Positions 1-8,575 of a stretch of 8,575 bases of DNA are shown one piece after another. Below the pieces are notes generated by a model. The model saw nothing but the letters and a program-made list of their open reading frames with translations, had not been told where the DNA came from and did no database searches. Origin of the DNA: Candidatus Tectimicrobiota bacterium (GTDB lineage: Bacteria; JACPSX01); NCBI GenBank assembly GCA_016193065.1, contig JACPSX010000046.1, positions 1 through 8,575 of the forward strand. Reading direction: 5' to 3'. Within the stretch, counting starts at the first letter, position 1. Each line of letters begins with the position of its first letter. The translations under genes and the position numbers were made by a program.

Positions 1-89
1 CCGACTTCCTTTTCCCCTTTGAGGCCACCTCGGTGCTGATCTTCGTGGCCCTGTTGGGAGTGGTGATCTTGGCCAAAAAGAAACTCTAG
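1..89 (+). CDS. nuoJ: NADH-quinone oxidoreductase subunit J, C-terminal end (partial)
   Basis: This is the last 28 codons of a gene that begins before the window; the frame starts at base 3 and stops at TAG 87-89. The peptide reads [14 protein letters not shown] and then a hydrophobic helix ending in AKKKL. NuoJ is a membrane-arm subunit of complex I, and family members typically end with a proline/phenylalanine-glutamate motif, a final transmembrane helix and a short basic tail, as here. The next gene, nuoK, starts 23 nt downstream, which is the standard J-K order. The call rests on this short end plus its position, so it is good but not certain. Confidence 0.85.
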
Positions 90-102
90 GCCGCAGTGAC
101 GT

Positions 103-107
103 GGAGG
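103..107 (+). promoter_or_regulatory. Ribosome binding site deciding the nuoK start
   Basis: GGAGG lies 5 nt before GTG 113. It favours GTG 113 over the in-frame GTG at 101, which has no purine-rich site upstream. Confidence 0.6.
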
Positions 108-112
108 CATCT

Positions 113-415
113 GTGGTTCCTCTCAGCCATTACTTGATCGTCAGCGCCGCCCTCTTCGCCATCGGTGTGGCGGGCGTACTGGTGCGCCGCAACGCCATCA
201 TCATCTTCCTGAGCATCGAGATCATGCTCAATGCGGTGAACCTGACTTTTGTGGCCTTCTCGCGCTTTCTCGATTCTCTGAGCGGCCAGATCATCGTCTT
301 CTTCGTCATGACCGTGGCGGCCGCCGAAGCCGCCGTAGGGCTGGCCATCATCGTGTCCATTTACCGGAACCGGGAATCCGTGGACGTGGACCGCGTCAAC
401 TTGCTGAAGGGGTAG
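113..415 (+). CDS. nuoK: NADH-quinone oxidoreductase subunit K
   Basis: NuoK is a small three-helix subunit of the complex I membrane arm that carries part of the proton path next to NuoJ, NuoA and NuoN. From GTG 113 the protein is 100 residues, the same length as E. coli NuoK, and begins MVPLSHYL, a typical family start. The two membrane glutamates known to matter in the family fall at the same numbers as in E. coli: E36 (in [12 protein letters not shown]) and E72 (in [12 protein letters not shown]). An in-frame GTG at 101 would add four residues (104 aa) but lacks a ribosome site. The gene follows nuoJ by 23 nt. Unusually, it is followed by 285 nt of non-coding DNA before nuoL. The gene looks intact. 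Confidence 0.95.
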
Positions 416-438
416 CGGATGAAGAAAGCGTGCAGGGC

Positions 439-466
439 TTAGCATTCAGCACTCAGCTATCAGCCT
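439..466 (+). repeat. Degenerate 7-nt tandem repeat array 1 (TCAGCNN)
   Basis: Three exact units of TCAGC followed by two variable bases start at 446, 453 and 460, preceded by one degenerate unit (TTAGCAT) at 439. The period is strictly 7. It is in inverted orientation to the arrays at 612 and 8253, with which it shares the core TCAGC/GCTGA. Confidence 0.75.
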
Positions 467-476
467 GAGAATTGGA

Positions 477-495
477 GGATCAAGGAATTTAACCT
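477..495 (+). repeat. Direct repeat copy 1 in the nuoK-nuoL gap
   Basis: The 19 bases here read GGAT-C-AAGG-AA-TTTAACCT. Bases 591-606 carry the same sequence without the three extra bases (C and AA). The repeats bracket about 95 nt that contain the hairpin at 530-559. Confidence 0.5.
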
Positions 496-509
496 CAATC
501 CGAAATTCC
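484..509 (+). repeat. Inverted repeat / hairpin
   Basis: GGAATTT (484-490) is the exact reverse complement of AAATTCC (503-509), with a 12-nt loop. It overlaps the first direct repeat. No T-run follows, so it is not an intrinsic terminator. Confidence 0.45.
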
Positions 510-529
510 CCATCGGGGTCATTCAGCGT

Positions 530-559
530 TGGCCCGCGGGTGTCAGGCCCTGCGGGCCA
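530..559 (+). repeat. GC-rich hairpin
   Basis: TGGCCCGC (530-537) and GCGGGCCA (552-559) form a perfect 8-bp stem around a 14-nt loop. There is no T-tract after it, so it is unlikely to be an intrinsic terminator. It may be a transcript-stabilising or element-internal hairpin. Confidence 0.55.
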
Positions 560-590
560 CCGGCGCGGATCAAGCAGGTTGGTTTTCTTC

Positions 591-606
591 GGATAAGGTT
601 TAACCT
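591..606 (+). repeat. Direct repeat copy 2 in the nuoK-nuoL gap
   Basis: GGATAAGGTTTAACCT matches 477-495 apart from three missing bases. A shorter piece, GGATCAAG, also recurs at 567-574 and matches 477-484 exactly. Confidence 0.5.
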
Positions 607-658
607 ACCGAGCTGACGGTTGAACGCTGATCGCTGACAGCTGAAAGCTTGCGGTAGG
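604..658 (+). repeat. Long hairpin enclosing repeat array 2
   Basis: CCTACCGAGCT (604-614) can pair with AGCT (646-649) plus CGGTAGG (652-658), giving 11 base pairs with a 2-nt bulge (TG, 650-651). The 31-nt loop consists mostly of the 7-nt repeat array. The hairpin ends 42 nt before the nuoL start. Confidence 0.5.
612..646 (+). repeat. Degenerate 7-nt tandem repeat array 2 (GCTGANN)
   Basis: Five units start at 612, 619, 626, 633 and 640: GCTGACG, GTTGAAC, GCTGATC, GCTGACA and GCTGAAA, with a decayed sixth (GCTTGCG) at 647. The core GCTGA is kept in four of five; the last two bases vary freely. Its reverse complement matches array 1 at about 21 of 31 positions, so the two can pair. Confidence 0.75.
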
Positions 659-700
659 AAGTAGACGATGGAGTCGTTCGAGTGATGGAGTGGCAGACGA

Positions 701-3073
701 ATGCTTGACTATGTAGGCTGGGTGCCCCTGCTGACCTTCCTCGGGGTGGTCGTCAACGGCTTGTTCGGCAAGTTGCTGGGCAAGAGGGCCGTGACCTGGG
801 TCGGCTGCGGCGTGGTAGGGCTCTCCTTCCTTCTCTCCTTAGGGATCTTGCAGACCTTGCTCTCGCTGCCTGTGGAGTCGCGTCACTTTGAGAAGATCCT
901 CTACACCTGGGTGGCGGCCGGAGATTTCCGCGCCGTGGTCGGCTTCCAGGTGGATCCGCTGTCGGCGGTGATGATCCTGGTGGTCACCGGGGTCGGGTTC
1001 CTCATTCATGTCTATTCCGTGGGCTACATGCGCGAGGACGGCGGCTACGCCCGCTACTTCGCCTACCTGAACCTGTTCACGTTCTCCATGCTGATCCTGG
1101 TCCTGGCCAACAACTTCCTGCTCATGTTCGTGGGCTGGGAAGCCGTGGGGCTCTGCTCTTATTTGCTGATCGGCTTCTGGTTCGAGAGGAAGTCGGCCTC
1201 CGATGCGGCCAAGAAGGCTTTCATCGTGAACCGGGTGGGGGATTTCGCCTTCCTGATCGGCCTTTTTCTGATCTTCGTTCACTTTAAGACGCTGGATTTT
1301 ACCGAGGTCTTCGGCTCCGCTCCCCGGGTTCTCGGCGAGGGGACCGTGCTGGCCACGGCGATTACCCTCCTCTTGTTCGCCGGGGCCACGGGGAAATCCG
1401 CCCAGCTCCCCCTGTACGTGTGGCTCCCGGATGCCATGGAGGGTCCCACGCCGGTAAGCGCTTTGATCCACGCGGCCACGATGGTCACGGCGGGGGTTTA
1501 CATGGTCGCCCGGACCAGCGCCCTTTACCTTCTGGCTCCTGTCTCGATGACCGTGGTGGCCACGGTGGGAGCCCTGACGGCTCTGTTTGCGGCCACCATC
1601 GCCCTGGCCCAGAACGACATCAAGCGGGTTCTGGCCTATTCGACCATCAGCCAGCTCGGTTACATGTTTCTCGCTGTGGGGGTAGGGGCCTTTGCGGCGG
1701 GAATCTTCCATCTGATGACCCATGCGTTTTTTAAAGCTCTCATGTTCCTGGCTGCCGGCAGCGTGATCCATGCCCTGGGGGGAGAGCAGGATATGCGTCA
1801 GATGGGAAAGCTCAAAGAGAAGCTGCCGGTCACCTACTGGACGAACCTCATGGGGGTCCTGGCGATTGCGGGAATTCCGGGCTTTTCGGGCTTTTTCAGC
1901 AAGGATGAGATCCTCTGGAAGGCGTACAGCAGCCCCTACGGCGGCTTGGGGTTCTGGCTCATCGGGGCCGTCACCGCGGGCCTCACGGCTTTTTACATGG
2001 GCAGGCACCTGTTCATGATCTTTCACGGGGAAAGCCGTGTCGATTCCCACCGGGCAGCCCACCTGCACGAGTCTCCAGCGACGATCGCTGTTCCGCTGAT
2101 GTTTCTCGCCATACTGTCTGTCGTCGGAGGATATCTGGGCGTTCCTGCCGTCCTGGGAGGCGGCCAGCCCTTTGAGGCCTTTCTGGCTCCGGTTTTCGGA
2201 GCGGAGGGCGCTCACAACTTGGGAGGAGGGGCCCATTCGGCCGGCCCGGAGTTACTGCTCATGGGAATTTCCGTTCTCCTGGCCCTGGGCGGGATCGGGG
2301 TTGCCTATCGGTTCTACGTAAAAAATCCCCGGATTCCTGTTCTCCTGGCGGGGCGCTGGCCGCGGACCTATCGGGTCTTGCTCAACAAGTATTATGTGGA
2401 TGAGCTTTATGGATTCCTGATCGTGAAGCCGCTGGTGCTGGGCTCCCGGTGGCTGTTCGAGGCCCTGGATACTTTCGTCATTGAGGGGACGGTAAACGGC
2501 GTGGCCCATCTCCTGGAAGCCGGCGGCATGGCCCTGCGCCGCCTGCAATCAGGGTATGCGAGTGCAGTGGATCCGCTGGGGCGCGCTGCTCGTCTCGCTG
2601 CTGGATTTCGTCCTGTCCCTGAAGCTCTACACGGACTTCAACCCCGCGACCCCGGCCCTGCAGTTTGTGGAGAAGGTCCCGTGGATTCCGCGCTGGGGGG
2701 TGTCCTACAGCGTGGGGGTGGACGGGATCAGCCTGTTTCTCATCCTGCTCACGACCTTGCTCAGCAGCGTGGCCATCCTGTCTTCCTGGAAAGCGATCAC
2801 GGAAAGGGTGAAGGAGTACATGGCCTCCATGCTGCTCCTGGAGACCGGCATGCTGGGGGTCTTTGTGGCCGCCGACCTCTTCCTGTTTTACGTGTTCTGG
2901 GAGGTCATGCTGGTGCCCATGTATTTCCTCATCGGGATCTGGGGGGGACCCCGCCGGATTTATGCCGCGGTGAAATTCTTCCTGTACACGATGGTGGGCA
3001 GCCTGCTCATGCTGGTGGCCATCCTGGTGCTCTTTTTTCTCAACTACGAGGTCACCGGCCGGTACACGTTTGA
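701..3073 (+). CDS. nuoL: NADH-quinone oxidoreductase subunit L, 3' end damaged (reads out of frame into nuoM)
   Basis: NuoL is the distal antiporter-like proton-pumping subunit of complex I. Residues 1 to about 619 match the family. E147 in [14 protein letters not shown]232 in [16 protein letters not shown]345 in [10 protein letters not shown] and K401 in FFSKDEIL correspond to the charged residues of the membrane proton path. The lateral-helix region runs to RRLQSGY at residue 619. There the homology stops: NuoL proteins normally continue with about 25 residues forming a last membrane helix, but this frame continues for 171 residues of Gly/Pro/His/Arg-rich sequence that is simply nuoM read in the wrong frame, stopping at 3073. 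The start is ATG 701 with GGAG 10 nt upstream; an in-frame TGA at 683 and no start codon between rule out an earlier start. The true coding part is therefore 701 to about 2557, and the final anchor helix is lost. Confidence 0.9.
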
Positions 3074-4076
3074 CTTGTGGGATCTCTATCAACTGGAGCT
3101 TCCCCTCCATCTCCAGGTCTGGCTCTTTCTGGCCTTTGCCTTGAGCTTTGCCATCAAGGTGCCCATGTTTCCCTTCCACACCTGGTTGCCCGATGCCCAT
3201 GTGGAGGCACCCACGGCGGGCAGCGTCATCCTGGCCGGCGTCCTGCTGAAGATGGGGACCTACGGGTTTCTGCGCTTTGCTCTCCCCCTGTTTCCCGCCG
3301 CCACCCTGCAGTTTGTCCCCTGGATCTCCTGGCTGGCCCTGATCGGGATTATTTACGGGGCGCTCATGGCCTTCGTGCAAAAGGACATCAAGTCCCTGGT
3401 GGCCTATTCCAGCGTAAGCCACCTGGGCTTTGTGATGCTGGGGATTTTTGCTCTGAACCCTGAGGGGATTCAGGGGGGGATCCTGCAGATGGTGAACCAT
3501 GGGCTCTCCACGGGTGCTCTGTTCCTCATCGTGGGGATCATCTACGAGCGCCGCCACACCCGCCTGATCGAGGAGTTCGGCGGGCTTTCCTCCCGGATCC
3601 CCCTGTTTGCCACCTTCTTCATGATCGTCACTCTTTCTTCCATTGGTTTGCCCGGTCTGAACGGGTTCGTCGGGGAGTTCCTGATCCTGGTGGGCACGTT
3701 CCGGTCGAACCCGCTCTACGGGGTCATCGGGGCCGTCGGGGTGATTCTGGCTGCCGTGTACATGCTGTGGATGTTTCAGAAGGTCATGTTCGGGAAGATC
3801 ACAAATCCGCAGAACCAAAACCTGGCGGACATGACGACCCGGGAGGTCATCACCCTGATTCCTCTGGTGGCGCTCATCTTCTTCATCGGCGTTTTCCCGA
3901 GCGTCTTCCTGGCCAAGATGGAAACCTCGGTTTCCCATCTGATCGGTCGCGTCCAGGGGGGAGGAGAATTGCGTGTCCAGAGCCCGGCGCCTCCCGAGAC
4001 GTCTGCCCCGCTTCTTTTGGACTCGCGTGACCGCTCACGGGTAAACGGTACGGGTCCGGGGGAGAATCTTCCATGA
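2556..4076 (+). CDS. nuoM: NADH-quinone oxidoreductase subunit M, N-terminally truncated
   Basis: NuoM is the middle antiporter-like proton pump of the complex I membrane arm. Key family residues are present: E116 in [19 protein letters not shown]201 in [18 protein letters not shown]232 in [12 protein letters not shown] and E374 in [10 protein letters not shown]. The first possible start in frame after the stop at 2493 is ATG 2556, with only AGGG one base upstream, a poor ribosome site. The homology begins at [11 protein letters not shown], which matches E. coli NuoM at about residue 29, so roughly the first 30 residues (first membrane helix) are missing. The frame overlaps the extended nuoL frame by 518 nt. 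The 3' end is normal, with a variable Pro/Ser-rich tail of about 35 residues, and TGA overlaps the nuoN ATG (ATGA). Family assignment is certain; whether this start is used is not. Confidence 0.9.
4058..4064 (+). promoter_or_regulatory. Ribosome binding site of nuoN
   Basis: GGGGGAG lies 8 nt before ATG 4073 inside the end of nuoM. With the ATGA overlap it supports translational coupling of nuoM and nuoN. Confidence 0.6.
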
Positions 4077-5533
4077 ACTTCGTGCTGCCGGAAATCGATC
4101 TGGGAGCCATCGCGCCTCAGCTCTGGCTCACTGCCACAGCCATCCTGGTCTTGATGGTTCAGGCGTTCGTACCGCTGGTCACGAGCCGCTCCCTGGCCCT
4201 GCTCAGCATCATCGGCAGCCTTCTCTCCCTGGTGGCCACCCTGGGCCTGTGGGGACAGGAAGCCGTTTTGTTCTCGGGGATGATTGCCCTGGACACCTTC
4301 AGCCTCTTTTTCAATGTGGTTTTCCTGCTCGGGGCCATCCTCACGGTGCTGATCTCGGTTGAGTACCTGGAGCGCGAGCAGATCGCCCACGGGGAGTATT
4401 TCGCGCTGGTGCTTTTTGCCACCGTGGGAATGATGATCATGGCCGCGGGGGTCGACCTGATTGCCATCTTCATCGGCCTGGAAATCCTCTCTCTCTCCCT
4501 CTACGTGCTGGCGGGGTTCATGCGCCAGGTCCTGCGCTCCAACGAGTCGGCCATGAAGTATTTCCTGCTGGGCGCCTTCGCCACCGGATTTTTCCTCTAC
4601 GGCATCGCCCTGTTGTATGGAGCCACCGGGAGCACGAACCTGGACCGGATCTTCTTAATCGCGGGCGAACGGGGAGGGTGGGGAAACGTGCTGGTCATGG
4701 GAGGGATGGGGCTTCTGCTCGTCGGATTTGGCTTCAAGGTGGCCTCCGTCCCCTTTCATATGTGGACTCCGGATGTTTACGAGGGGGCTCCCACTCCCAT
4801 TTCCGCCTTCATGTCGACGGCCGCCAAGGCCGGCGCCTTCGCGGCCTTCGTGCGGGTCTTCCTGTATTCACTGCCCGGGCTGGCGGCTTCCTGGGCACCG
4901 CTGCTGGCCGGCATGGCGGTCTTGTCGATGGTCGTGGGGACCCTGCTGGCCCTGGTCCAGAGGCGCAATATCAAGAGGCTGCTGGCGTATTCCAGCATTG
5001 TCCACGTGGGCTACCTTTTGCTCGGGCTTCTCTCGGGCGGGACCGAGGGCGGGGCCAGCGTCCTTTTCTACTTGCTGGCCTATACGTTCATGCAGGTGGG
5101 GGCGTTTGCCGTGGTGGTTTACCTGGGAGGCCAGGGGGAAGATGACCTGTCGCTGGCCCGCTTCTCCGGGGTGGCCGTTCGCCACCCGGTGGCCGCTTTG
5201 GCGTTTTCTCTCTTCCTCCTGTCCCTGGCCGGGATTCCGCCGACGGCGGGCTTCGTGGGCAAGTTTTATATTTTCAGCGCCGCGATCCAGGCGGGACACA
5301 TCGGGCTGGCCGTGGTGGGCGTTCTCACCAGCGTGGTCTCGCTTTATTACTATCTGGGAGTTATTGTGTTCATGTACATGCGTGATCCCGTCGACCTTCC
5401 GGAGCGGCGGCCGTCGGCGGCCTTGGTCACGGCCCTAGCCTTGGCCGTGGCCGGCACCGTGGAGATGGGGCTTTTCCCCGGCAGCCTCCTGGATCTGGCT
5501 CAGCAGTCCGTGGCGAGTCTTCTGGGCTCCTGA
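4073..5533 (+). CDS. nuoN: NADH-quinone oxidoreductase subunit N
   Basis: NuoN is the third antiporter-like proton-pumping subunit, placed in the membrane arm between NuoM and NuoK. At 486 residues it is full length (E. coli NuoN is 485). Charged residues of the channel are visible: E137 in [17 protein letters not shown]222 in [20 protein letters not shown]252 in STAAKAGAF and K397 in [10 protein letters not shown]. The motif [16 protein letters not shown] (303-318) is typical of the subunit. The start ATG 4073 overlaps the nuoM stop and has a strong ribosome site 8 nt upstream. It ends the JKLMN block; the usual operon end in this family follows nuoN, consistent with the 537-nt non-coding gap after it. 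No damage is seen. Confidence 0.97.
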
Positions 5534-5766
5534 GGGCAGACCAAAGAGGAAAACTTGCCCCCGACTTCGTTATTGAGGAGCTACTCTCATCCGCTCCTCG
5601 GGGTGCCCCCTTGGGCTCACGAAGCGCTTGCGACGTGAATTGTGTGGGCCGGATTGAGAGTTCTCTTCCTCGCAACCGCTTAGATCGCCTGCGGGGGCTA
5701 CCCCTCGGCCGGAGACGACTGAGGAGGCTGCCCGATCTGCCCTGAGCGCAACTGCCGGGAGCAATG

Positions 5767-5788
5767 GCACCCGCGAAGCGGGTACCCG
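5767..5788 (+). repeat. Hairpin repeat copy A
   Basis: Shared arms GCACCC and GGGTACCCG enclose the tip GC-GAA-GC, forming the stem ACCCGC/GCGGGT (5769-5774 and 5778-5783) with a GAA loop. CCCG/CGGG (5785-5788 and 5791-5794) can form a second small hairpin next to it. An 8-nt direct repeat CCGGGAGC (5755-5762 and 5790-5797) flanks the unit. It pairs with copy B, 111 nt downstream. Confidence 0.65.
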
Positions 5789-5877
5789 ACCGGGAGCGGC
5801 CAGGGATGGGAAACCGCGCAGCCTAAACTTGCTTGCAGATAGCTCAATACTTAACGTGGCGGTAGCGGAGGGGTCCC

Positions 5878-5899
5878 GCACCCATAGAATGGGTACCCG
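5878..5899 (+). repeat. Hairpin repeat copy B
   Basis: The arms GCACCC and GGGTACCCG are identical to copy A, but the tip is AT-AGA-AT instead of GC-GAA-GC, so both sides of the stem changed together (ACCCAT/ATGGGT, 5880-5885 and 5889-5894). An outer helix TCCCGC/GCGGGA (5874-5879 and 5919-5924) and a second arm ACCC/GGGT (5895-5898 and 5911-5914) would make a compact three-way junction. Confidence 0.65.
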
Positions 5900-6002
5900 G
5901 CGCCCCGGAAGGGTCATTGCGGGAGGCGTGAAGCGAAGGGCGGGAGGGCAGTCCCCTGAAATGGATTCGCCAAAGCTGGGGCTGAGCAAGACGGGAAAAG
6001 GG

Positions 6003-6031
6003 TTGCATGGTAGAATCTCCTGTGCTAGGGT
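6003..6031 (+). promoter_or_regulatory. Candidate promoter upstream of nuoA
   Basis: TTGCAT (6003-6008), a 17-nt spacer and TAGGGT (6026-6031) with an extended TG two bases before it fit a sigma-70-like promoter. An overlapping alternative is TGGTAGAAT (6008-6016), a good extended -10 without a clear -35. Either would give a 5' leader of about 30-50 nt before nuoA. This is pattern matching only; the host's promoter consensus is unknown. Confidence 0.35.
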
Positions 6032-6062
6032 TTGCAGTCGATTTTTCGGAGGGGAAGGGGAA

Positions 6063-6086
6063 ATGAGAGCGTGGAAGTATTCTTAA
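6063..6086 (+). other. Minimal upstream ORF overlapping the nuoA start
   Basis: ATG 6063 begins a seven-codon frame (MRAWKYS, stop TAA 6084-6086). GGAGGGG around 6047-6053 is better spaced for this ATG than for nuoA. It overlaps the first five codons of nuoA in another frame, so ribosomes stopping here could reinitiate or interfere at nuoA. It may be chance. Confidence 0.25.
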
Positions 6087-6463
6087 GGGGTTATTCCGCC
6101 CTCGGTCCTTACGTCCCGGTATTCCTTTTCATCGTGGTGGCCGTCACATTTGGCATTGTGACTCTGTTCATTGCCAAGCTGGTGCGACCCCACAGACCCT
6201 ACCCCGAAAAGCTTTCCCCTTACGAGTGCGGCGTCCCGCCTCTCATGGAAGCCCGCGAGCGCTTCTTTATCCGGTTTTACATCATCGCCATACTTTTTGT
6301 CCTGTTCGATGTGGAGGCGGCGTTTCTCTACCCTTGGGCCGTGCTCTACGGGAAGCTCGGGCTCTACGGTTTCATTGAAATGATGATCTTCATCGGCATC
6401 CTGCTGGTGGGATATTTTTACGCCTGGCGCAAGGGGGCGCTGGATTGGGTGAAGGAAGGCTAA
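6071..6463 (+). CDS. nuoA: NADH-quinone oxidoreductase subunit A
   Basis: NuoA is a three-helix membrane subunit at the junction of the two arms of complex I, lining the quinone site with NuoH. From GTG 6071 the product is 130 residues, within the family range. Landmarks are the loop motif KLSPYECGVPP (47-57) with the conserved cysteine C53, and the second helix FFIRFYIIAILFVLFDVE with D80 and E82, followed by AAFLYPWA. The C-terminal GALDWVKEG is normal. GTG 6071 was chosen because it gives a family-like N-terminus (MEVFLRGYSALGPY) and has AAGGGG about 10 nt upstream; an in-frame TTG at 6032 would add 13 residues lacking family character. It opens a new gene block after a long gap and is probably its first gene. 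Confidence 0.95.
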   Translation: MEVFLRGYSALGPYVPVFLFIVVAVTFGIVTLFIAKLVRPHRPYPEKLSPYECGVPPLMEARERFFIRFYIIAILFVLFDVEAAFLYPWAVLYGKLGLYGFIEMMIFIGILLVGYFYAWRKGALDWVKEG

Positions 6464-6469
6464 AGGGCC

Positions 6470-7156
6470 GTGGATGAAAAAGATCGAGAAGAAAAAATCA
6501 AGGCCGCCCAAGAAGGGGCGGCAAAGCGTGCTGCAGCTCCCAAACCTGCTCAGGAAGCAGCTCCCGCCCCGGATGTAGAAACGATCCCCGTCGTGCGCCG
6601 CTTGCGGCAGTCCTTCCCCGAGGCGGTCCGTGAAGTTACCGTCCCCGGAAAAATCCCGGACGAGCTCACCGTGCTGATCTCAGCGGAAAAGATCGTTGAG
6701 GTTTGCCGGTTTCTCAAGGAGGACCCCGAGCTTTCCTTCGATTACCTGGCTGATCTGACGGGTGTCCATTATCCGGATCGGGAAGAGTGCCTGGAGGTGG
6801 TCTATCACCTCTATTCCATGAAGCGCCGGGAGCGCTTGCGGCTCAAAGTGCGGGTGCGGGAAGAGGAGGCCGTGGAATCCGTGAGCTCCGTGTGGCGAAC
6901 GGCCAACTGGCATGAGCGCGAGGCTTACGACCTGGTGGGGGTCCGCTTCCGCAATCATCCCGACCTGAGGCGCATCCTTTTGCCGGAAGAGTGGGAAGGG
7001 CACCCCCTGCGCAAGGAGTACCCTGTGGAGGGGAAAGGAGAAGGGTTGCGCTACGTGGCCCATGTCCTGCGGGATCCCGAAAGAGCCTTCCGGGAATTCG
7101 AGGAGCACCAAGCGAGCAAGAAATCACAGGAAGTTCCCCAGGAGGAGGGGGAATAA
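6470..7156 (+). CDS. nuoC: NADH-quinone oxidoreductase subunit C
   Basis: NuoC (30 kDa-type subunit) is a hydrophilic subunit that packs against NuoD near the quinone site. The 228-residue product has a charged, Ala/Pro/Lys/Glu-rich N-terminal stretch (1-35), then the family domain. It includes DYLADLTGVHYP (about 85-96) and the signature WHEREAYDLVGVRF followed by NHPDLRRILLPEEW, ending with LRKEYPVEGKGEGLRYV. GTG 6470 is the first start after the nuoA stop, which lies in the same frame 6 nt upstream; the nearby AAAGGG is only 2 nt from GTG, so the start is weakly supported. An in-frame GTG at 6593 (residue 42) would skip the low-complexity stretch. NuoB, usually encoded just before nuoC, is missing here. 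The gene runs into nuoD with a 3-nt gap. Confidence 0.95.
   Translation: MDEKDREEKIKAAQEGAAKRAAAPKPAQEAAPAPDVETIPVVRRLRQSFPEAVREVTVPGKIPDELTVLISAEKIVEVCRFLKEDPELSFDYLADLTGVHYPDREECLEVVYHLYSMKRRERLRLKVRVREEEAVESVSSVWRTANWHEREAYDLVGVRFRNHPDLRRILLPEEWEGHPLRKEYPVEGKGEGLRYVAHVLRDPERAFREFEEHQASKKSQEVPQEEGE
7147..7152 (+). promoter_or_regulatory. Ribosome binding site of nuoD
   Basis: A run of GGAGG and GGGGGA at 7141-7152 lies within the end of nuoC, its last part 7 nt before GTG 7160. It supports this GTG start and coupling to nuoC. Confidence 0.55.
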
Positions 7157-7159
7157 GCC

Positions 7160-8257
7160 GTGCTGGAAACGAGAGAGCTGATTCTCAACATGGGTCCCCA
7201 GCACCCCAGCACCCACGGGGTCTTGCGCTTGGTCTTGAAGCTCGAGGGGGAGACGATCGTGGGGACCGACGTGGTCATCGGATACCTCCACCGCGGCTCG
7301 GAAAAGATCGCCGAAAATCTCCCCTACTTCGAGTTCGTCCCCTATACGGACCGTCTGGACTATACGGCGGCCCTATCCAGCAACCTGGGTTACGTGATGG
7401 CGGTGGAGAAGATCTCCAGCATCCGCCCGCCCGAGCGGGCGGAATACGTCCGGGTGATCCTCACCGAGTTTCAGCGCATTGCGGCCCACTTGGTCTGGCT
7501 CGCGACCCACGCTTTGGACCTGGGGGCCATGTCGGTCTTCCTGTACTGCTTCCGGGAACGGGAGGCGATCCTGGATCTCTTCGAGATGGTCACGGGCGCC
7601 CGTCTCACGATCAACTTTTTCCGCATCGGCGGTGTGCCGGCCGACCTGCCGCCCCAGTTCTTCGCCCGGTCCTGGGAGTTCGTGGAAACCTTTCCCGACC
7701 GCATCAAGGAGTATGAGGCGCTGCTCACCCGCAACAAGATCTGGCTGAAACGCACCCGGAACGTGGCGGTCATCTCCGCCGAGGACGCCATCGACCTGGG
7801 GTTGACGGGTCCGAGCCTGCGGGGCAGCGGGGTTTCATTTGACGTGCGGCGGGCCGAGCCTTATTCCATCTACGAGCGTCTCCAGTTTGATATACCCATC
7901 GGGGAGAAGGGAGATGTGTTTGACAGGTACATGGTGCGGATGGAGGAGATGCGCCAGAGCCTCCGGATCATCCGGCAGTGTCTCGAACAGATTCCGGAAG
8001 GGGATCTCCTGAGCCGCGTGCCGCGCAAGCTGAAACCCGCTCCCGGAGAGGTCTATGTGCGGATCGAGGCTCCCAAAGGGGAGCTGGGCTTCTACATCGT
8101 AAGCGACGGCAGCGAGAAGCCCTATCGTCTCAAGATCCGGGGACCCTCCTTCGTCAATTTGCAGTCCCTGCCCGCCATGGTCCAGGGGGGACTGGTGGCC
8201 GACGTGGTGGCCGCCATCGGCAGCATTGATGTCGTGCTGGGTGAGGTGGATCGCTGA
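7160..8257 (+). CDS. nuoD: NADH-quinone oxidoreductase subunit D
   Basis: NuoD (49 kDa-type subunit, related to the NiFe hydrogenase large subunit) forms most of the quinone-reduction cavity. The product is 365 residues and complete, from NMGPQHPSTHGVLRLVLKLEGE to the usual ending VLGEVDR. The two quinone-head-group ligands known from the Thermus subunit (His38 and Tyr87) are H19 in HPSTHGV and Y68 in DRLDY, with the same spacing. Other landmarks are GYLHRGSEKIAE (41-52) and RGSGVSFDVRRAEPY. The start GTG 7160 lies 3 nt after nuoC, with a strong ribosome site. Its TGA stop (8255-8257) falls inside a 7-nt repeat array. NuoE, NuoF and NuoG do not follow; nuoH does, as in the shorter complex I gene sets without an NADH-oxidising module. 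Confidence 0.97.
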   Translation: MLETRELILNMGPQHPSTHGVLRLVLKLEGETIVGTDVVIGYLHRGSEKIAENLPYFEFVPYTDRLDYTAALSSNLGYVMAVEKISSIRPPERAEYVRVILTEFQRIAAHLVWLATHALDLGAMSVFLYCFREREAILDLFEMVTGARLTINFFRIGGVPADLPPQFFARSWEFVETFPDRIKEYEALLTRNKIWLKRTRNVAVISAEDAIDLGLTGPSLRGSGVSFDVRRAEPYSIYERLQFDIPIGEKGDVFDRYMVRMEEMRQSLRIIRQCLEQIPEGDLLSRVPRKLKPAPGEVYVRIEAPKGELGFYIVSDGSEKPYRLKIRGPSFVNLQSLPAMVQGGLVADVVAAIGSIDVVLGEVDR

Positions 8258-8273
8258 GTGCTGAGGGCTGAGC
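8253..8273 (+). repeat. Degenerate 7-nt tandem repeat array 3 (GCTGANN), overlapping the nuoD stop
   Basis: Three units, GCTGAGT, GCTGAGG and GCTGAGC, start at 8253, 8260 and 8267. The first supplies the TGA stop codon of nuoD. The core and the period of 7 match arrays 1 and 2 in the nuoK-nuoL gap, more than 7.5 kb away. Confidence 0.7.
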
Positions 8274-8280
8274 GCTTTTT

Positions 8281-8286
8281 AAAGGA
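8281..8286 (+). promoter_or_regulatory. Ribosome binding site of nuoH
   Basis: AAAGGA lies 7 nt before GTG 8294. An in-frame TAA at 8288-8290 excludes any earlier start. Confidence 0.6.
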
Positions 8287-8293
8287 TTAAGGC

Positions 8294-8575
8294 GTGCCGA
8301 CCGTTCTTGTTGAGATTGTCGTGGTCCTGGTGAAGATTGCCGTTGTTTTCGGGGCCGTTGCCCTGGTGGTGGCCTACCTGACCTATCTGGAGCGTAAAGT
8401 CATCGGCCACATGCAGCACCGCATGGGACCCATGCGCGTGGGCTGGCACGGCCTCCTGCAGCCCATCGCCGACGGCCTCAAGCTTTTTGTCAAAGAAGAC
8501 ATTATCCCCAGCCAGTCGGACCGCTGGGTGTTTTTTCTGGCCCCCGTGGTTTCCCTGGTGCCGGCCTTTATTGCG
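8294..8575 (+). CDS. nuoH: NADH-quinone oxidoreductase subunit H, N-terminal part (partial)
   Basis: NuoH is the membrane subunit that, with NuoD and NuoB, encloses the quinone chamber. The window shows its first 94 residues and ends on a codon boundary. The first membrane helix spans about residues 5-31. It is followed by [16 protein letters not shown] and then [17 protein letters not shown], which fits the conserved subunit-1 signature (G-x-x-Q-x-x-x-D-x-x-K), and a second helix starts around residue 81. GTG 8294 is the only start available, as a stop precedes it by one codon. The 36-nt gap from nuoD is filled mainly by the 7-nt repeat array. Typical family length is about 320-350 residues, so most of the gene lies beyond the window. 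Confidence 0.95.

Follow-up and report, generated by a model that had tools for sequence, protein, structure and literature searches.

The nuoL and nuoM genes in the window (the whole stretch of DNA analyzed here, bases 1 to 8575 of the 12,902-bp contig C21) are joined out of frame, with the end of nuoL and the beginning of nuoM missing, and comparison with related genomes and with other genes of the same draft leads us to infer that this join is probably a local assembly error and not a loss of DNA in the cell. Some 125 to 260 nt of real sequence would have been dropped without Ns during assembly or gap closing, producing an artificial out-of-frame junction at approximately bases 2557 to 2567, and the organism would most likely carry ordinary, separate, and complete nuoL and nuoM genes at this locus.

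The join between nuoL and nuoM

The homologous part of the first nuoL copy (bases 701 to 2557, plus strand, 619 codons) lacks both its last helical tail and a stop codon of its own. This part is 47 to 64% identical to most relatives and matches TIGR01974 with 752.5 bits over positions 8 to 612 of 630, far exceeding the curated cutoff of 407 bits; the last 18 to 23 model positions are absent at the join. The TIGR01974 match stops at position 612 of 630 and the PRK06590 match at 592 of 615, both corresponding to residue 621 of the nuoL frame, and the homology itself ends at Y619 (base 2557), before the last helix, as the first-pass annotation had recognized. Solved NuoL chains continue for 21 to 25 residues past the aligned end (4he8_L, aligned to 585 of 606; 8qby_L, to 678 of 703), and all listed relatives that reach the QTGY/QSGY motif carry a tail of 19 to 36 residues after it, mostly a hydrophobic helix. 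This C-terminal transmembrane tail is absent from the NuoL of the window.

The first nuoM copy (bases 2556 to 4076, plus strand) is well preserved over most of its length, with a TIGR01972 match of 639.7 bits (positions 25 to 484 of 486; cutoff, 264 bits) and a PF00361 match of 262 bits to the antiporter core, but the first 24 to 33 model positions are absent at the join. NuoM homology begins at approximately base 2562 to 2571, and matches to the PRK05846 models likewise start late, at positions 26 to 40. Alignments to solved NuoM chains start at residue 27 (3rko_M) or 34 (8qby_M), leaving 26 to 33 residues before them, and in relatives a head of approximately 27 to 35 residues, forming a hydrophobic helix with a peak hydropathy of 2.3 to 2.9, precedes the position of IRWGALL. 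The window's NuoM has no such N-terminal hydrophobic helix; the ATG at base 2556 is a chance start codon that arose at or beside the join.

To measure the spacing across the join, we used NuoL Y619 (bases 2555 to 2557) and NuoM I6 (bases 2571 to 2573; both plus strand) as landmarks. They are 13 nt apart in the window, compared with a minimum of 137 nt and a median of 184 nt across 78 related loci that have the two genes, a set that includes a few genomes counted twice because they were reached by two routes; larger distances occur among these loci where extra sequence or genes intervene. At the locus of the closest NuoM homologue (G086:C60, 71 to 72% identity), the landmarks are approximately 275 nt apart. 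Relative to these loci, approximately 125 to 260 nt, covering the end of nuoL with its stop codon, the spacer, and the head of nuoM, are absent from the window. The out-of-frame loss described in the first-pass annotation is therefore borne out, the comparison with relatives that was named there as a way to overturn it having failed to do so, but the size of 150 to 200 nt given there is narrower than the range that relatives suggest. The exact breakpoint lies somewhere at approximately bases 2557 to 2567, and there are no Ns at the join.

Downstream of the join, the nuoL frame runs on inside nuoM, out of frame, from base 2558 to base 3073 (plus strand). Over the 518 nt shared by the two frames, that of nuoM has a coding-like codon score (+0.35) and the nuoL run-on does not (−0.18); the run-on is therefore a noncoding shadow, as had been proposed, and it has no family match past residue 621. 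It comprises 172 codons of low hydropathy, with no stop near the join. An overlap of this length between frames, with no stop in that of nuoL, might suggest a programmed frameshift or a fusion linking nuoL to nuoM; this reading is very improbable, as shifting frame would not restore the absent helices, and in relatives the two genes are distinct, with a stop codon and in most cases a spacer or short overlap. A naturally short form, a trimmed complex in which NuoL without its last helix and NuoM translated from ATG 2556 both work, would account for the presence of an ATG followed by a 506-codon open frame. We nevertheless consider it very unlikely and reject it: none of the 78 comparable loci combines a similarly short NuoM with an equivalent NuoL end, the closest homologue is not short either, so that every relative examined contradicts it, and the nuoL frame would have to continue for 172 codons into the low-hydropathy shadow.

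On either side, coding quality stays normal right to the edge of the join. Profile matches and codon scores revealed no other damage in nuoK, nuoL, nuoM, or nuoN; the neighbors nuoK (bases 101 to 415, plus strand; NF004320 positions 3 to 98 of 99) and nuoN (bases 4073 to 5533, plus strand; TIGR01770 positions 3 to 469 of 472) are complete.

A second complex I cluster and scattered nuo genes

Approximately 500 nt without a conserved gene (bases 5534 to 6031) separate nuoN from nuoA and mark where the first of two tandem complex I clusters gives way to the second. The second cluster starts with nuoA, nuoC, and nuoD (bases 6032 to 8257, plus strand), followed by nuoH, which is interrupted by a run of 56 Ns beginning at contig base 8576; the window stops exactly at the edge of this run. 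Past it, the contig carries nuoJ, nuoK2, nuoL2, and the start of nuoM2. The nuoL2 gene is intact (663 aa), with a tail of 22 residues after the same QTGY/QSGY motif, and nuoM2 has a normal, intact head, with its first 255 codons present before the contig ends at base 12,902. At 59% (nuoL2) and 58% (nuoM2) identity, these are the sole close relatives of the first copies in the genome, where no intact copy of the first nuoL and nuoM was found. A search for a second copy, suggested in the first-pass annotation, thus yielded a paralogous pair, nuoM2 being cut by the contig end, but not a duplicate of the first pair.

Two other candidate losses in the second cluster were considered and set aside. 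NuoD is approximately 26 model positions short, but it belongs to a natural short subfamily (PRK12322, positions 1 to 366 of 366) common to its nearest homologues. A deletion of nuoB and nuoI between nuoA/nuoC and nuoH/nuoJ is not supported either, as nuoI- and nuoB-like genes sit together on another contig, C144, and the genome G047 likewise has no recognizable nuoB between A/C and H/J. The set on C144 (L124:12550-15694) consists of a nuoI-like gene, nuoB, nuoE, and nuoF beside formate-dehydrogenase-like genes, and it stands apart from the nuoA-C-D-H-J-K-L-M cluster that begins in the window, which is without B and I; its nuoB shares 74% identity with the nuoB that G086 has within its cluster. 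A further set, with nuoB, a long-form nuoD, nuoI, and a nuoG-like gene, lies on the minus strand of contig C152 (L123:491-4545); several contigs therefore carry parts of complex I, of at least two types.

Unmarked losses elsewhere in the draft and the probable cause of the join

The draft genome comprises 2.9 Mb in 294 contigs and is 86% complete. On contig C31 (L191:4029-5904), argB has lost its tail and its frame runs into argD, most of whose C-terminal part is also lost, with no Ns. The argB homology ends right after the HALLL motif (IDGRIHHALLL), where the acetylglutamate kinase 2buf continues for 18 residues, and the argB frame reads on for 500 nt within argD in the wrong register. The latter matches its profile only to position 313 of 381, most of the last 68 positions being absent; after a C-run, a fragment resembling an aminotransferase C terminus follows in another frame (weak match, E 0.22). 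On contig C17 (L178:3868-5443), ilvB has lost approximately 40 model positions in frame and later changes frame: it matches positions 2 to 109, then 150 to 357 with 3 nt between the two pieces, and then 358 to 555 in another frame, so that positions 110 to 149 are absent. No other clear biosynthetic acetolactate synthase large subunit was found in the genome; other matches to the ilvB family are weaker than its three pieces combined, and none passes the family cutoff. On contig C28 (L188, minus strand, approximately 15990 to 16094 in reverse-complement coordinates), a molybdopterin oxidoreductase gene changes frame at a seven-G run, looking like a one-base homopolymer error.

Genes expected to be intact thus show similar unmarked losses (argB/argD, argD, and ilvB twice), although argB, argD, and ilvB were picked up through overlapping frames and the survey was not unbiased. 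Ten conserved genes were also picked from the draft at random, and those with family matches showed no damage. Frame breaks detected with Escherichia coli queries affected 1/29 genes here and 0/32 in control genomes, a difference that is not significant, and codon-based and homology-based frame-break counts over the sampled contigs, which are thin, showed no significant excess over controls. Because the random sample showed no damage, the scars in this draft are occasional and not everywhere. N-runs of 4 to 60 nt are recurrent (14 in the 0.8 Mb sampled). The only measurable gap, that in nuoH, has approximately the expected size (18 residues are missing and the matches lie 59 nt apart), which indicates that gap shortening was not a general feature of the assembly.

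The first-pass annotation favored a deletion and allowed an assembly error as an alternative; since argB/argD, argD, and ilvB carry the same type of unmarked loss, an assembly error is now the leading cause. The fragmented draft scaffold, with an N gap inside nuoH on the same contig and recurrent N-runs in the draft, points the same way, as do the absence from the genome of an intact copy of the first nuoL and nuoM and the lack of decay elsewhere in these genes; the intactness of most randomly chosen conserved genes counts against it, as do the nearly correct size of the nuoH gap and the lack of a significant excess of frame breaks. An improbable but not negligible alternative is a real deletion: this organism, or the population sampled, would recently have lost the same 125 to 260 nt, and with them the C-terminal helix of NuoL and the first helix of NuoM, and would tolerate the loss thanks to the adjoining second cluster. 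The missing stretch is well defined against the 78 relatives, the same contig carries an intact nuoL2 and an undamaged nuoM2 head, and there are no Ns at the join, all as such a deletion would have it. Set against this are the normal coding up to both edges, the undamaged remainder of nuoK, nuoL, nuoM, and nuoN, and the equivalent losses in argB, argD, and ilvB, no redundancy being evident for the biosynthetic ilvB. Real deletions would imply simultaneous recent lesions, each with clean coding to its edges, and local assembly errors therefore fit better; it is likelier that such errors recurred than that arginine synthesis, branched-chain amino acid synthesis, and complex I were each hit independently and recently. 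That a deletion is not only real but also fixed, with one of two tandem complex I clusters dying or working in trimmed form beside an intact second, is less probable still.

Assembly errors of this kind have been described previously: Chen et al. (2020, PMC7111523) reported 13 local assembly errors for a single metagenome genome of 1.13 Mb and noted that, when uncorrected, such errors lead to incorrect protein-coding genes in databases. The join would resemble their cases, in which the consensus of a draft genome is wrong, without any mark, inside protein-coding genes. Their diagnosis, however, used reads without perfect support, whereas ours comes from sequence comparison.

The helices whose loss had led to the suggestion that complex I is probably impaired are indeed missing from the assembled sequence, but the impairment does not safely follow, as an assembly error is likelier and nuoL2 and nuoM2 are present. 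The locus is best read as a warning: what looks like a plausible lesion of a respiratory complex was met in a draft where the same kind of unmarked loss recurs in several essential genes, and any claim of broken pathways based on this assembly calls for support from reads. A real deletion, should there be one, would offer a natural test of how dispensable the anchor helix of NuoL and the first helix of NuoM are.
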